DNA of 64,000 bases from contig CAJQPN010000014.1 in NCBI GenBank assembly GCA_905480195.1, forward strand, positions 62,001 to 126,000, in the 5' to 3' direction. The notes beneath the pieces are model-generated. The model made no database searches and was not told the DNA's origin. It saw only the letters and a program-made list of their open reading frames with translations. Positions 422 through 7,065 of this stretch are shown here, in pieces; the first letter of the stretch is position 1; each line of letters opens with the position of its first letter. Source of the DNA: an uncultured Acidimicrobiales bacterium. GTDB taxonomy: Bacteria; Actinomycetota; Acidimicrobiia; Acidimicrobiales; Aldehydirespiratoraceae. The translations under genes and the position numbers were made by a program.

Positions 422-1387
422 ATGGAACTTCTCCGTGACCGCCTAGATCATCTTCCTGCTGCCGTTTCAGTCGCGTCCACGATCGGGGTGTTCGATGGTG
501 TCCACCTCGGACATCAGGAAGTCTTTCGTCAAGTCCGTTCCACCGCTGATCGTCTTGGTGTCGCAGCCGCAGTCGTGACCTTCGACGGTCACCCGGCCCA
601 TGTTGTGCGCCCTGAGTCAGCACCGCTGCTGCTCACCACCCTCGACCAAAAGCTCGACCTCCTCGAGGCGCAGGGCCTCGACTACGCCTACGTCGTCTCG
701 TTCGACGAGGCCCGGGCGGCAACCCCGCCTGATGTGTTCATGCAGGAGGTCTTCGTCGATGCGTTACATGCCAAGGCGATCGTGGTGGGCGAGGACTTCC
801 ACTTCGGGGTTGGGCGTAGCGGCAACGTCGACGGTCTTACGATGTTCGGCGAGTCGGCTGGGTTCGAGGTCCATGCCCTCGAACTGATCCGTCACTCCGA
901 CGAAGCCCGCGAACCAGTGTCCTCAACCAAGATCCGTCGAGCGTTGGCCGGTGGCGACGTCCGTCGGGCGGCTGAGATGCTCGGGCGGCCCTACGAGGTT
1001 CGCGGTGTGGTCGAGGGCGGCGACCGGCGGGGAACCCAGATCGGCTTTCCAACGGCCAATATTCTCATTCCAAACGCAATGGCCTGGCCCGCCGACGCGG
1101 TATATGCGGGCTGGTGTCAGCGCGAGAACGGCGACGTGCATCCGTGCGCGATCAATATCGGTCGTCGGCCGACATTCTACGAGCACGCAGAGCAGTCGCT
1201 TCTCGAGGTTCACTTGATCGATTTCGAGGACGATCTTTACGGAGAGCAGGTCGACGTATCGTTCGTGGAGTTCCTTCGCAGCGAGCGCAAGTTCAACGGC
1301 ATCGATCAGTTGATCGAGCAACTCAAGGCCGATGTTGACGACAGCCGCGTCTTGCTTGCCGAGTCCACGTGGCGGCCTGGCGCTTGA
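422..1387 (+). CDS. ribF: bifunctional riboflavin kinase/FAD synthetase
   Basis: GVFDGVHLGHQ nucleotidyltransferase motif, GxxxGFPTAN flavokinase motif. Confidence 0.95.
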   Translation: MELLRDRLDHLPAAVSVASTIGVFDGVHLGHQEVFRQVRSTADRLGVAAAVVTFDGHPAHVVRPESAPLLLTTLDQKLDLLEAQGLDYAYVVSFDEARAATPPDVFMQEVFVDALHAKAIVVGEDFHFGVGRSGNVDGLTMFGESAGFEVHALELIRHSDEAREPVSSTKIRRALAGGDVRRAAEMLGRPYEVRGVVEGGDRRGTQIGFPTANILIPNAMAWPADAVYAGWCQRENGDVHPCAINIGRRPTFYEHAEQSLLEVHLIDFEDDLYGEQVDVSFVEFLRSERKFNGIDQLIEQLKADVDDSRVLLAESTWRPGA

Positions 1388-1435: not shown

Positions 1436-2035
1436 ATGTTCACTGGTCTGGTTGAAGAAATCGGCACGGTTCGGTCCGTAACACCGGTCGGTGACGGTGC
1501 CCGGGTCGAGATCGGCGCTGCCGTCGTCCTCGCTGACGTCGAGATGGGAGCGTCCATTGCGGTCAACGGTTGTTGTCTGACCGTGGTCGAATGGGGGAGC
1601 GACTGGTGGGCAGCGGATGCGGTGCCCGAGACGCTCGACCGCACCAACCTGGGTTCGCTCGGCCCTGGTGACCCTGTGAACCTCGAACGACCACTCGCAG
1701 CCAACGGTCGATACGGCGGCCATGTTGTGCAGGGTCATGTCGACGGCACCGGAGAGGTCCAGCACATCGAACAACTCGACGATGGCTCGTACCTCTTCAC
1801 CTTCTCGCTGCCTGCGGAACTCATTTCGTACGTCGTTGAAAAGGGATCGATCGCCGTCGACGGCATCAGTCTCACCGTTGCCGGGGTCACTCCGACGTCG
1901 TTCTCGATTGCCATCATCCCTCACACCCACGCCGTCACGGCGATGGGTCGGCGTCAGGTGGGCGATACCGTCAACCTGGAAGCCGACGTGCTCGCCAAGT
2001 ACGTCGAACGGCTCGTCCGTCCATCCCTGCAGTGA
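1436..2035 (+). CDS. ribE: riboflavin synthase (alpha chain)
   Basis: MFTGLVEEIG N-terminus and duplicated lumazine-binding domain; GHVVQGHVDG. Confidence 0.95.
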   Translation: MFTGLVEEIGTVRSVTPVGDGARVEIGAAVVLADVEMGASIAVNGCCLTVVEWGSDWWAADAVPETLDRTNLGSLGPGDPVNLERPLAANGRYGGHVVQGHVDGTGEVQHIEQLDDGSYLFTFSLPAELISYVVEKGSIAVDGISLTVAGVTPTSFSIAIIPHTHAVTAMGRRQVGDTVNLEADVLAKYVERLVRPSLQ

Positions 2036-2072: not shown

Positions 2073-3299
2073 GTGAGCGATTTCCCCTTCACCGATATTG
2101 AGACCGCCGCCCAGGCGCTGGCCGCAGGGGAGTATGTGGTGCTCGTCGACGACGATTCGCCCGACGCCACCGGCGCACTTGCGGGTGCAGCTGAGCCGAT
2201 GACTACCGAACGGCTCGTGTGGCTCAATCGTCGTACGACCGGCCTCGTGGGTGTGCCAATGACCGTCGAGCGAGCGAATGCACTCGGCCTCGAATTGATG
2301 GTTGGCGAGGACGAAGCCACCGGACGAGGAGCCTTCACGGTGTCGATCGACCTGATCGAGGGCAACGCGACCGGTTCGTCACCGGCCGATCAGGCCCGGA
2401 CGATCGCTGCGCTCGCTCGCAACGACCTTCGCCCGGATCAGTTCGCCCGCCCCGGCCATGTGTTTCCACTCCGCGCCCGTCCCGGGGGTGTGCTGAAGCG
2501 GGCCGGCCATGCCGAAGCGGTCGTCGATTTGTGCACCGTCGCTGGTGTCGCCCGAGTCGGGGTGGTCGCCGACCTCGCGACCGAAGCGGGCGAGATGATG
2601 GATCTCGCCGCCTCGCGAGCCTTCGCTCTTGAACACGGCCTCAAGTTGGTATCGATCGCCGATTTAGTGCGACATCGCCGCCAAAAGGAGATCCTCGTCG
2701 AGCACTTCGCAGCCGCCCGCCTTCCCACCACCTTCGGTGAGTTCATGGCGCACGCCTATCGATCGGTGGTCGACGGCGAAGAACACGTCGCCTACGTCAT
2801 GGGCGACGTCGAGGGTGGCGAACCGCCGCTCGTGCGAGTCCACAGCGAGTGCCTCACCGGTGACATTCTCCATTCGACGCGCTGCGACTGTGGTCCACAG
2901 CTTCAGACTGCGCTGCAGAAGATCGCCGAAGAAGGTCGCGGCGTGTTGATCTACCTACGCGGTCATGAGGGCCGTGGCATCGGTATCGGCCACAAGATGC
3001 GGGCCTATGCCCTGCAGGACGAGGGCCTCGACACCGTGGATGCCAACTCAGCGCAGGGCCTTCCCGTCGACAGTCGAGAGTACGGCGTTGGTGCAAATAT
3101 GCTCGCCGACCTCGGTGTGACTCGGATGCGGATCATGACGAACAATCCGGCGAAGCTCACCGGGCTCGACGGTTACGGGCTCGAGATCGTGGAGCGCGTT
3201 CCGATCGAGATCCCACCGAATCCTGAGAACCTCCGATACCTCCAGACGAAGCGGAACCGGATGTCACATCAAATCGGTGCCGAGCCCGATGTCGGTTGA
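2073..3299 (+). CDS. ribBA: RibBA-type protein: GTP cyclohydrolase II domain intact, DHBP synthase domain apparently degenerate
   Basis: GTG start at 2073 in frame with ORF 1722..3299; GCHII motifs HSECLTGD, RCDCG, GHEGRGIG; N-terminal RibB fold aligns end to end but active-site motif reads DDDSPDATGAL. Confidence 0.9.
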   Translation: MSDFPFTDIETAAQALAAGEYVVLVDDDSPDATGALAGAAEPMTTERLVWLNRRTTGLVGVPMTVERANALGLELMVGEDEATGRGAFTVSIDLIEGNATGSSPADQARTIAALARNDLRPDQFARPGHVFPLRARPGGVLKRAGHAEAVVDLCTVAGVARVGVVADLATEAGEMMDLAASRAFALEHGLKLVSIADLVRHRRQKEILVEHFAAARLPTTFGEFMAHAYRSVVDGEEHVAYVMGDVEGGEPPLVRVHSECLTGDILHSTRCDCGPQLQTALQKIAEEGRGVLIYLRGHEGRGIGIGHKMRAYALQDEGLDTVDANSAQGLPVDSREYGVGANMLADLGVTRMRIMTNNPAKLTGLDGYGLEIVERVPIEIPPNPENLRYLQTKRNRMSHQIGAEPDVG

Positions 3300-4522
3300 G
3301 AGTCAACTGATGTCGTGACCTGACCCGCCGCGTCCACCGCCGGGTACGTGCGGGTCCACGCATGGTTGAGGCTTCTATCGGAGATGCTGCCTGGAGACCA
3401 GCGGCCCCAAATACCGCCCACCACTGCGTGTGTCCGGTCGTTCCACGCAGCACATGTCGGTTCGGCCACGCGACGCACCACTTGGCGAACGGCCGAGGCG
3501 TGGATCGTATAGCCGGCCCAAACGCCGGGGTAGTCCTTGGTTGCTGACACCTCAGTGACCAGCCCAGTTGCGTGGCGGTACGCCCGGTTGCGGTGGGTGT
3601 GGCCGCTGGAGATGACGAGATCGGGGTTGGCCTCGAACAAGGCAGGCAGGAGATCGCGCGTGTCGAACTTTCGGATTCCGGGAGGCCAGATGTGCGGGTA
3701 TCTCCAGGGCTCGAGGTGGTGATGGGTGAAGATGAACGCTGGTTGCTCGCAATCGACCGCCTGGACCAGTTGCTCGGTCCACTGGCCGAGTCGGCCATAG
3801 CTGTGGCCGGGTACGGTCGAGTCGGCCATCACGATCGTTGCCCCGCCGATGTCGGTCGCATAGACCGGCTCGGGAAAGAGGCCTCGACGCCGAAGTTCGG
3901 TGGTGGCGTCGAGGGAGCCGCGCTTGGCAAACGTGTCGTGATTACCGGGCACGGCGAGGATCGGGATGTGGACGTCATCGAGCAGTTCATCGAAAAGATC
4001 CCATTCCGCAGGCATGCCGAGTTCGGTGATGTCACCCTTGATGACGAGGAGTTCGGCGCCCCACGCCTGAGCCTCGCGCACGGCTGCCTTCGCGCATCGA
4101 AGTGGGTAGGGCTCGACACCGTTCGGTTCTCGGAGTTGGCGGATCAGTCCGAACCCGTCAGCACCGAGATGGAGGTCGCTGATTGTTGCGATCTTTGCGA
4201 TTGGGGGGCCGTCAAGAGCACCGAGCGTGGTGACCAGGTGCCGGGTGATCGGTTGGCCGTCGACCTCGACGTCGACGGCTGTGCCGGTACCGGCAGCGAA
4301 GCCGTCGACGTCGGCAGCGCCGGAGTCGCCGGCCGCACCGATTTCGATCGGCTGTGTCCCGCTCCGGTGGTGGACGTTGAGGCGCAATGGACCATCGGGC
4401 AGGCCACGCCAGGTGAACTGCGCAGTCGTGTCCTCTACCGCGAACACTTCGGTCGGTGAGAGAGCAGTGAACGGGAGGGTCGGAAGTGCGCCTCGTCGGG
4501 TGGTGTCGGCGGCTGACGCCAT
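3269..4522 (-). CDS. calcineurin-like metallophosphoesterase
   Basis: SDLHLG, KGDITE, GNHD, GHTH motifs; start placed at MASAADTTRR. Confidence 0.8.
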   Translation of the reverse strand: MASAADTTRRGALPTLPFTALSPTEVFAVEDTTAQFTWRGLPDGPLRLNVHHRSGTQPIEIGAAGDSGAADVDGFAAGTGTAVDVEVDGQPITRHLVTTLGALDGPPIAKIATISDLHLGADGFGLIRQLREPNGVEPYPLRCAKAAVREAQAWGAELLVIKGDITELGMPAEWDLFDELLDDVHIPILAVPGNHDTFAKRGSLDATTELRRRGLFPEPVYATDIGGATIVMADSTVPGHSYGRLGQWTEQLVQAVDCEQPAFIFTHHHLEPWRYPHIWPPGIRKFDTRDLLPALFEANPDLVISSGHTHRNRAYRHATGLVTEVSATKDYPGVWAGYTIHASAVRQVVRRVAEPTCAAWNDRTHAVVGGIWGRWSPGSISDRSLNHAWTRTYPAVDAAGQVTTSVDSQPTSGSAPI

Positions 4523-4566
4523 GGTTTCGACGTTATGGCCTACCGCCGAACGTGACTGGTCACGAG

Positions 4567-7065
4567 TCATGAGCGGAGCGAACGGCTGAAGCGCTCGTGC
4601 TCACGGCCGCGGAGGCGAGCATTGATTGCCTGACGCTCAAGGTGTTGCTCGACCTGCTTTCCGGCCTGGGGAATCGGGTGGTTGGCGAGAAAATCCGCGA
4701 CCTCGGCGACGAGGTCGGGTTCATCGAGTGCCGTGATTCCCGACAGCATTCGTGGGATCGAGTTGCTCGGGAAACGGCCATCGAGATCAGCCCAGTTGTC
4801 TCGTACGTAAGCCCAGACGTAGCGGTCGACGAAGCGGTTGTGCATCGCCCGGGCGAGCACGTAAGGCGCGTCCTGGGTACGTACCGATCCGTGGCTGATC
4901 TCGGTGAGGAGCTGATCAACTAGTTCGACCGAAGGAAAGTTCGCAAGGGCACGGAGGTTGCGGATCTCGCCCTGAGGATCGTCGGCGGACTGCCAACGGT
5001 CGTGGACCGTGTCGTATTCGTCTTCGCCACCGTTGTGGCTCATGACGGTGAGAGCCGCAGCAGCGAGTGATGCGTCGTCGTGGTCAAGTGCCTCGGCAGC
5101 CGAAGCGATCACGGTGTGGGAGCCGCCTACGGTTCCCAATACTCGCACGAGCGTTGCTCGAAGCTCTCGGGTCCGGTCGTCGTCGTCGACTCCGGGTTCG
5201 CTTCCGACTGCCGCAAGAATGGGCTCGGCGAGCTCTCGCACGGCTGCCTGGAGTGTGGGTCGGGTATCGTCGTCGACGAGTCGATCGAGCCCGTGGAGGC
5301 CGGTACTGATCGCTTGCCACACGTTGAGATCGTCTTCTCCTGCGAAGTGGCGACAGAGGCTCAGGAACTCGGCGGCGGTGAGCGCACCGGCGACGCACGC
5401 GGCCCAGGCGTCGTCGACCACGCTGTGGCGTTCGGCAGGGCTGAGCTGGTCTGGATCGGGAAGTGCGTCGATGGTGATCGCAGTGCGGAGGAAGCCACTC
5501 GCGCCCTCGCTGACGGTGAGCGGGGCACCGGTGATGCCGGTGAGCAGCATCGAACGCTGGTCCATCAGCACCGATGTCGTGCCGCCGGAATGACGGATCA
5601 CGAGCGGGATCGTCCAGGTCCGGTCGTCGGCAACCGACGGGTCGAGCGTGAAGTGGTGTTGCTCGAGTCGTAGGCCGTGGGGGGTGGGGGTGGCGGTCAC
5701 GACGGGATGGCCACCTTGAAAGATCCATGCGTGCATGAGTGCTTGGACGGGCTGGCCCGACACGAGTTCGAGCGAATCCCACAGATCGGTCGTCTTCGTG
5801 TTCTTGTAGGCATGGGTTGCGATGTAGTGCCGCACTCCGTCTCGGAACACGTCTGCGCCGAGGTACTGCTCGAGCATGCGAACGACCGCAGCGCCCTTTT
5901 CATAGGTGAGGAGATCGAACATTCCCTCAGCGTCCTCGGGAGTGAGGACTGGGTATTCGATCGGTCGGGTCGAGGCGAGCGCATCGACATCGAAGGCTTG
6001 GGCGCGGGCGCGGGCGAACGTGTCCCAGACCCGCCAGTCGGGTCGATACGCATCACTGCAACTGGTCTCCATGAAGGTGGCAAAGGCCTCGTTGAGCCAG
6101 ATGCCTTCCCACCACTGCATTGTGACGAGGTCGCCGAACCACATGTGGGCGAGTTCGTGGTTGATTACATCGGCGACCACCTGGAGCTCTGGCTGACTCG
6201 CTTCGTCGGGGTCGACGAGAAGGAGCACCTCACGGAAGGTCACGCAGCCGAGATTCTCCATCGCCCCAAACGCAAAATCGGGGATCGCGATGAGGTCGAC
6301 CTTGTCGGAGGGGTAGGGGATGGCGAAGTAGTCGGACAGCCAGCCAAGGGCGTGCTTGGCCACGTCGAGTGCGAAGTGGGTCAGGTGCGCTTGGCCCGGA
6401 CGATGGACGACTCGGATAGGGATCCCGTCGGCGTCGATCGGCTTGGTGGCTTCAAGCGGTCCGACAACGAACGCGACGAGATAGGTGCTCATGATCATCG
6501 TGGGTGCGAAACTGATCCGCATCCGGCCATCGGATTCAGGCGTACGGTCAAACTCTGCGGTGTTTGAGACGGCCAGATGGTCGGCGTCGACGATCAAGGT
6601 GGTCTCGAAGGTGGACTTGTACTCGGGCTCGTCCCAACACGGGAAGCACCGTCGGGCATCGGTCGACTGAAACTGCGTGGTCGCGATGATGTGTTCGTCA
6701 CCACTGTCGTCGGTGTAGCTCGACCGGTAGAAGCCATGGAGCTGGTCATTGAGGACGCCGTCGAACGCGATCGAAAGTGTGGCTGAACCAGCGGGTAGCG
6801 CGGTGTCGGAGCGAAGGGTCAGTCGTTCGGTCTCGTCGTCGAGTTCGATGCTGACGATGTGCTTGGTTCCAGCCGTCGTGATCGATGCGGCGTGGATCGT
6901 GAGTTCGATCGCATTGAGCACGAGGTGATCGGTGGGTTCGATGATCTCGACGTCGATCTCGACCGATCCGGCGAACGTGAACCCCTGGAGATCAGGAGCC
7001 AGTTCGAGGCGGTAGGTGGAAGGAACCGCAAGACGGGGAAGGCGAGGATCGGCCGGGCTGCTCAT
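4567..7065 (-). CDS. pepN: M1 family aminopeptidase N
   Basis: GAMEN and HELAHMWFGDLVTMQWWEGIWLNEAFA zinc motif. Confidence 0.95.
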   Translation of the reverse strand: MSSPADPRLPRLAVPSTYRLELAPDLQGFTFAGSVEIDVEIIEPTDHLVLNAIELTIHAASITTAGTKHIVSIELDDETERLTLRSDTALPAGSATLSIAFDGVLNDQLHGFYRSSYTDDSGDEHIIATTQFQSTDARRCFPCWDEPEYKSTFETTLIVDADHLAVSNTAEFDRTPESDGRMRISFAPTMIMSTYLVAFVVGPLEATKPIDADGIPIRVVHRPGQAHLTHFALDVAKHALGWLSDYFAIPYPSDKVDLIAIPDFAFGAMENLGCVTFREVLLLVDPDEASQPELQVVADVINHELAHMWFGDLVTMQWWEGIWLNEAFATFMETSCSDAYRPDWRVWDTFARARAQAFDVDALASTRPIEYPVLTPEDAEGMFDLLTYEKGAAVVRMLEQYLGADVFRDGVRHYIATHAYKNTKTTDLWDSLELVSGQPVQALMHAWIFQGGHPVVTATPTPHGLRLEQHHFTLDPSVADDRTWTIPLVIRHSGGTTSVLMDQRSMLLTGITGAPLTVSEGASGFLRTAITIDALPDPDQLSPAERHSVVDDAWAACVAGALTAAEFLSLCRHFAGEDDLNVWQAISTGLHGLDRLVDDDTRPTLQAAVRELAEPILAAVGSEPGVDDDDRTRELRATLVRVLGTVGGSHTVIASAAEALDHDDASLAAAALTVMSHNGGEDEYDTVHDRWQSADDPQGEIRNLRALANFPSVELVDQLLTEISHGSVRTQDAPYVLARAMHNRFVDRYVWAYVRDNWADLDGRFPSNSIPRMLSGITALDEPDLVAEVADFLANHPIPQAGKQVEQHLERQAINARLRGREHERFSRSLRS

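Follow-up and report, generated by a model that had tools for sequence, protein, structure and literature searches.

Proteins of the RibBA type unite a 3,4-dihydroxy-2-butanone 4-phosphate (DHBP) synthase half (RibB) with a GTP cyclohydrolase II (GCHII) half (RibA), and members in which one half is altered are already known. Plant RIBA3 (AtRIBA3 in Arabidopsis, LOC_Os05g38570 in rice) is a full-length RibBA that has lost DHBP-synthase activity through substitutions but remains active as a GCHII (PMC3509567; PMC10964609); plants also keep the bifunctional RIBA1. RibBX of A. baumannii (PDB 6mnz) is a two-domain RibBA relative whose degenerate half is the C-terminal GCHII. The bifunctional RibA2 of M. 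tuberculosis (PDB 4i14) has an intact DDEDRENEGDL loop and is needed for riboflavin. In S. meliloti and B. abortus, where RibH2 is present, riboflavin can be made by a RibBA-independent pathway (BrbF and a hypothetical RibB2): wild types keep RibBA, strains without ribBA stay prototrophic, and the predicted RibB2 was not found (PMC9478397).

The ribBA gene considered here lies in a window of 64,000 nucleotides from an uncultured Acidimicrobiales bacterium of the family Aldehydirespiratoraceae. Its product shares the two-domain architecture of M. tuberculosis RibA2, its best match in sequence and fold, and it resembles plant RIBA3 in kind: it is full length, with DHBP-synthase residues substituted and GCHII residues kept, although no orthology with the plant clade is claimed. 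The original prediction had pointed to split loss among plant RIBA homologues, and RIBA3 is indeed the closest precedent. Unlike the plant case, the apparently dead copy is the only RibB, and it is found in bacteria with F420 genes; unlike RibBX, the affected half is the DHBP synthase; and unlike Sinorhizobium and Brucella, the known RibB appears dead in natural genomes that retain GCHII. The explanation that we regard as probable is that this RibBA acts as a GCHII with a dead but folded N-terminal DHBP-synthase platform, kept by demand for cofactor F420 after the other activity was lost. The features of the locus, in window coordinates, are the following:

422..1387, forward strand: ribF, riboflavin kinase/FAD synthetase (NF004160, 338.9 bits, above cut-off)
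1436..2035, forward strand: ribE, riboflavin synthase, intact by sequence (NF006767, 233.8 bits, above cut-off; alignment; dN/dS)
2073-3299, forward strand: ribBA, GTG start, 408 aa, full-length RibBA
2073..2678, forward strand: degenerate DHBP-synthase (RibB) domain, residues 1-202 (PF00926, 196 bits; tally of conserved positions)
2151..2180, forward strand: rewritten loop 1, DDSPDATGAL for DEDRENEGDL, residues 27-36 (alignment)
2700..3296, forward strand: GTP cyclohydrolase II (RibA) domain, intact by its motifs (PF00925, 243 bits; TIGR00505 above cut-off; zinc cysteines)
3269..4570, reverse strand: metallophosphoesterase-like gene closing the rib locus (synteny)

The two halves of the protein differ sharply. 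The GCHII half reads as intact: the motifs HSECLTGD, RCDCG and GHEGRGIG are retained, as noted at the outset, the zinc-binding cysteines 260, 271 and 273 are invariant in a 30-sequence alignment, and the TIGR00505 ribA profile scores 246.5 bits against a cut-off of 205.85. The DHBP-synthase half covers the whole PF00926 profile, but scores 196 bits against 281-302 bits in intact relatives, a deficit of about 85-105 bits, and it falls below the TIGR00506 ribB cut-off (155.9 against 177.45 bits). The catalytic loop reads DDDSPDATGAL in place of the DDEDRENEGDL of active enzymes, GHTEA has become GHAEA, and the conserved CE has become AD (VADL); all of these changes, noted from the sequence at the outset, are present in the alignment. 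Outside the loop, the window protein has lost Cys60, Arg107, Thr147 and Glu167, the last replaced by Asp, and all sampled members of the genus have lost Cys60, Asn80, Thr86, Ile102, Ala104, Arg107 and Arg177, which the earlier account had not listed. A set of 21 intact homologues shares 76 conserved positions; the eight genus members sampled all keep 42 of these, none of them keeps another 17, and the remaining 17 are mixed. The losses are concentrated in loop 1, where six of nine conserved residues are gone in every sampled member, compared with 11 of 67 elsewhere (Fisher p = 0.003). An assembly or sequencing error was considered as the cause of the rewritten loop and rejected: the nine genus genomes come from several projects and agree.

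The altered positions include those on which catalysis depends in characterized enzymes. Residues 30, 31, 33, 35 and 146 correspond to V. cholerae Arg38, Glu39, Glu41, Asp43 and His154. Mutation of Glu39, Glu41 or His154 abolishes activity of the V. cholerae enzyme, and work on the V. cholerae and M. jannaschii enzymes places Arg38 in contact with the substrate phosphate, with Glu39, Glu41 and His154 needed (PMC5228156). Across the genus the Arg38 site is Pro or Glu, the Glu39 site Asp, Glu, Gly or Thr, the Glu41 site Thr or His and the Asp43 site Ala, so that among the equivalents at 30, 31, 33 and 146 only His146 survives throughout. The four substitutions originally read in the loop (R to P, E to D, E to T, D to A) thus hold for the window, but the second is no fixed change: position 31, a magnesium-ligand Glu in active enzymes, is Asp in the window and Glu, Gly or Thr in other members. 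Such free variation would be unexpected for a metal ligand and makes residual ordinary catalysis unlikely. From these residues we infer that the DHBP-synthase half is catalytically inactive. The retention of His146, Arg143 and Asp106 counts against a dead domain.

No second RibB was found in the nine genomes of the genus, the complete-genome check that the original prediction had called for. RibBA is the single PF00926 match in its own genome, and all nine carry the rewritten domain at full length with one match each. The same prediction held that a non-catalytic domain was under selection rather than in decay. In its favour are the genus-wide, full-length retention, the rewritten loop, a predicted fold that is kept, and dN/dS well below 1: 0.07-0.17 in close genus pairs and 0.21-0.30 in distant pairs, the latter rough, with dS near saturation. 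The alignment to close relatives is also gap-free, as had been claimed, although M. tuberculosis RibA2 is two residues longer near position 168. An AlphaFold model built from window and locus sequences places the domain on the DHBP-synthase fold, with segment 80-101 poorly predicted, and matches M. tuberculosis RibA2 (4i14_A, TM 0.83 by target) as well as RibB structures. However, the dead half changes faster than its partner (the ratio of its dN to that of the GCHII half is about 1.6-3.4 in distant genus pairs, compared with 1.0-1.6 in intact relatives), and it is largely deleted in the sister genus; slow erosion and retention therefore coexist.

This erosion can be followed through the family. 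In a census that takes in a few incomplete genomes, RibBA is intact in 10 genomes, dead but full length in the nine of the genus, reduced to two fragments in G014 and without a match in 31. At the same locus (truB-ribF-rib-pepN) the relatives form a graded series from intact RibBA through the dead full-length domain, a scar of about 120 residues and a scar of about 10 residues to RibA alone. Both scars occur in the sister genus: in G014, RibA is preceded by about 120 residues of RibB scar (L028:694-1761, reverse strand), and in G021 RibA is joined to some 10 residues from the beginning of RibB (scar of this length at L224:8223-8942, reverse strand). In G014 the scar sequence is DGDLPESEGVL; the window and its closest relatives likewise have Pro at the Arg position, which is consistent with a shared first step. 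In a tree built from four neighbouring proteins, the window's genus groups as sister to the scar-bearing genus (bootstrap 88); an intact genus and a RibA-only genus branch next, so the RibB domain has probably been lost more than once.

What holds the GCHII half in place is suggested by its company. FbiC joins 5-amino-6-ribitylaminouracil (5-A-RU) to tyrosine to form FO (PMC8498797; PMC12240317). The RibA-only relatives G009, G014, G017, G018, G021 and G024 keep RibD and FbiC and are missing RibB, RibH and RibE, so GCHII there probably persists to make 5-A-RU for F420. Above-cut-off FbiC is found with RibD and CofD in eight of the nine genus genomes and in all sampled family members that keep RibA; FbiC and GCHII are both missing in G010, G011, G012, G020 and G039. 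Relatives without FbiC are also without GCHII, except the genus member G001, which has GCHII and no FbiC match in a genome that is 85% complete. FbiC occurs without GCHII in G030 (closed) and G019 (fragmented), and the example of G030 shows that the link is not strict. This closed genome of the same order (G030:C1) has FbiC at 448 bits and CofD, a weak RibD_C match and no match to GCHII, RibB, RibH or RibE. G010, an assembly of three contigs, carries a riboflavin synthase alpha gene (L239:9643-10287, reverse strand; 241 bits); GCHII, RibB and RibH were not found there, and lumazine salvage is possible.

Demand for F420 is most likely the reason that GCHII persists in the family, and the pattern suggests that RibBA of the genus now mainly feeds this cofactor. 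In the proposed mechanism, the GCHII half would open GTP, RibD and a phosphatase would carry the product to 5-A-RU, and FbiC would turn this into the deazaflavin core of F420. DHBP-synthase activity would have been lost in or before the genus ancestor, with F420 demand retaining ribBA thereafter, and the dead half would probably have been kept because it helps the GCHII half to fold or assemble; we infer both this platform role and the flux to F420.

The rest of the riboflavin pathway has not followed RibB in this genus. Besides one RibB match and one GCHII, the genome of the window encodes RibD with its deaminase motif, RibE, RibF, FbiC and CofD. The ribE gene is under purifying selection, with dN/dS of 0.06-0.12 in close genus pairs and 0.07-0.09 in distant pairs. 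Between ribBA and the metallophosphoesterase-like gene, the intact relatives G013 and G016 carry ribH (RibH1), immediately after ribBA; it is absent from this gap in the window and in G004. Lumazine synthase is represented instead by RibH2 (NF009084, 206.7 bits against a cut-off of 160; matches to the Brucella and Mesorhizobium structures PDB 2obx and 1t13), present in nine of nine genomes at a location away from ribBA. In the window's own genome (G000:C51) this Brucella-type RibH2, the sole lumazine synthase of the genus, lies at L216:9558-10004 on the reverse strand inside a purine-catabolism cluster. The cluster comprises a xanthine-dehydrogenase-like protein, SsnA-like and 8-oxoguanine deaminase amidohydrolases and, in most members, a NUDIX protein, in an order largely conserved across the genus. 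RibH1 and RibH2 genes adjoin in one riboflavin operon on a plasmid of another actinobacterium, Tsukamurella (NZ_LR134460.1, L259:6516-7438). The DHBP step alone is thus without an enzyme in the genus. In contrast to the RibA-only relatives, the genus has RibH2 in every genome and keeps RibE under strong purifying selection, which suggests that lumazine is still made and hence that F420 may not be the sole use of 5-A-RU.

Two alternatives, both compatible with a dead domain, concern where the riboflavin of the genus comes from. In one, RibH2 would draw its C4 unit from a DHBP synthase not homologous to RibB or from another donor, and RibE would complete the synthesis, giving 5-A-RU two uses; in the other, members of the genus would be auxotrophic for riboflavin and import it, and RibE and RibH2 would serve otherwise, for example in handling scavenged lumazine. 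We rate the former as a serious contender, somewhat short of an even chance. RibD, RibH2, RibE and RibF are all present, RibE has the low dN/dS given above, and it is the RibA-only relatives that have lost RibE and RibH. RibH1 does most riboflavin synthesis in M. smegmatis, but RibH2 can sustain it without RibH1 (PMC12240317), and the prototrophy of ribBA deletions in S. meliloti and B. abortus, where a second RibB was not found, offers a parallel (PMC9478397). Against it, the pathway is lost in the sister genus and no candidate enzyme was found. The neighbours of RibH2 (a thioesterase-like protein, an FMN-dependent lactate-dehydrogenase-type oxidase, a NUDIX hydrolase and purine-catabolism genes) include no obvious DHBP synthase, and RibH2 neighbourhoods elsewhere, plasmids included, share no common candidate. 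Tentatively, the C4 unit would come from no RibB homologue, and a new DHBP synthase or donor feeding RibH2 and RibE would be the RibB2 activity postulated for Sinorhizobium and Brucella; the gap in the genus matches the problem stated for those organisms (PMC9478397).

Auxotrophy is possible, though we would not expect it. The pathway has been lost from the sister genus and from most other members of the family, so uptake must exist in the family, and in G010 riboflavin synthase is the sole rib gene found. However, a search of the family for known uptake signals gave no PF04973 match (PnuX/RibM), no FMN riboswitch and no convincing ECF S-component, and RibE and RibH2 are strongly conserved. 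The readings are close, with a C4 source slightly favoured over salvage because RibE is constrained. Continued synthesis of DHBP by the rewritten domain, with an altered active site, is improbable. The domain is constrained, keeps His146, Arg143 and Asp106, as well as Thr100 in most members, and has Asp at the Glu167 site; but the metal-ligand position 31 varies, the sites of Glu33 and Asp35 are Thr or His and Ala, single changes at the equivalents of 31 and 33 inactivate the V. cholerae enzyme, and the sister-genus scar argues that the activity is dispensable.

A RibBA with a dead DHBP-synthase domain is thus of a kind already known through plant RIBA3; what is new is its occurrence as the sole copy in bacteria, the erosion series, the F420 context and a sharply posed missing step. 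With its only RibB apparently inactivated and RibA, RibD, RibH2, RibE and RibF persisting, the genus offers a natural setting in which to examine riboflavin synthesis without the known DHBP synthase; an alternative enzyme was predicted, though not found, in a 2022 study. Annotation by domain match would score these genomes as complete for DHBP synthesis, which matters where auxotrophy is predicted from gene lists. The family displays, at one locus, the stepwise loss of one activity by point inactivation, internal deletion and near-complete excision, and it suggests that genomes which have given up the second half of the riboflavin pathway can retain the first half on account of F420 synthesis.
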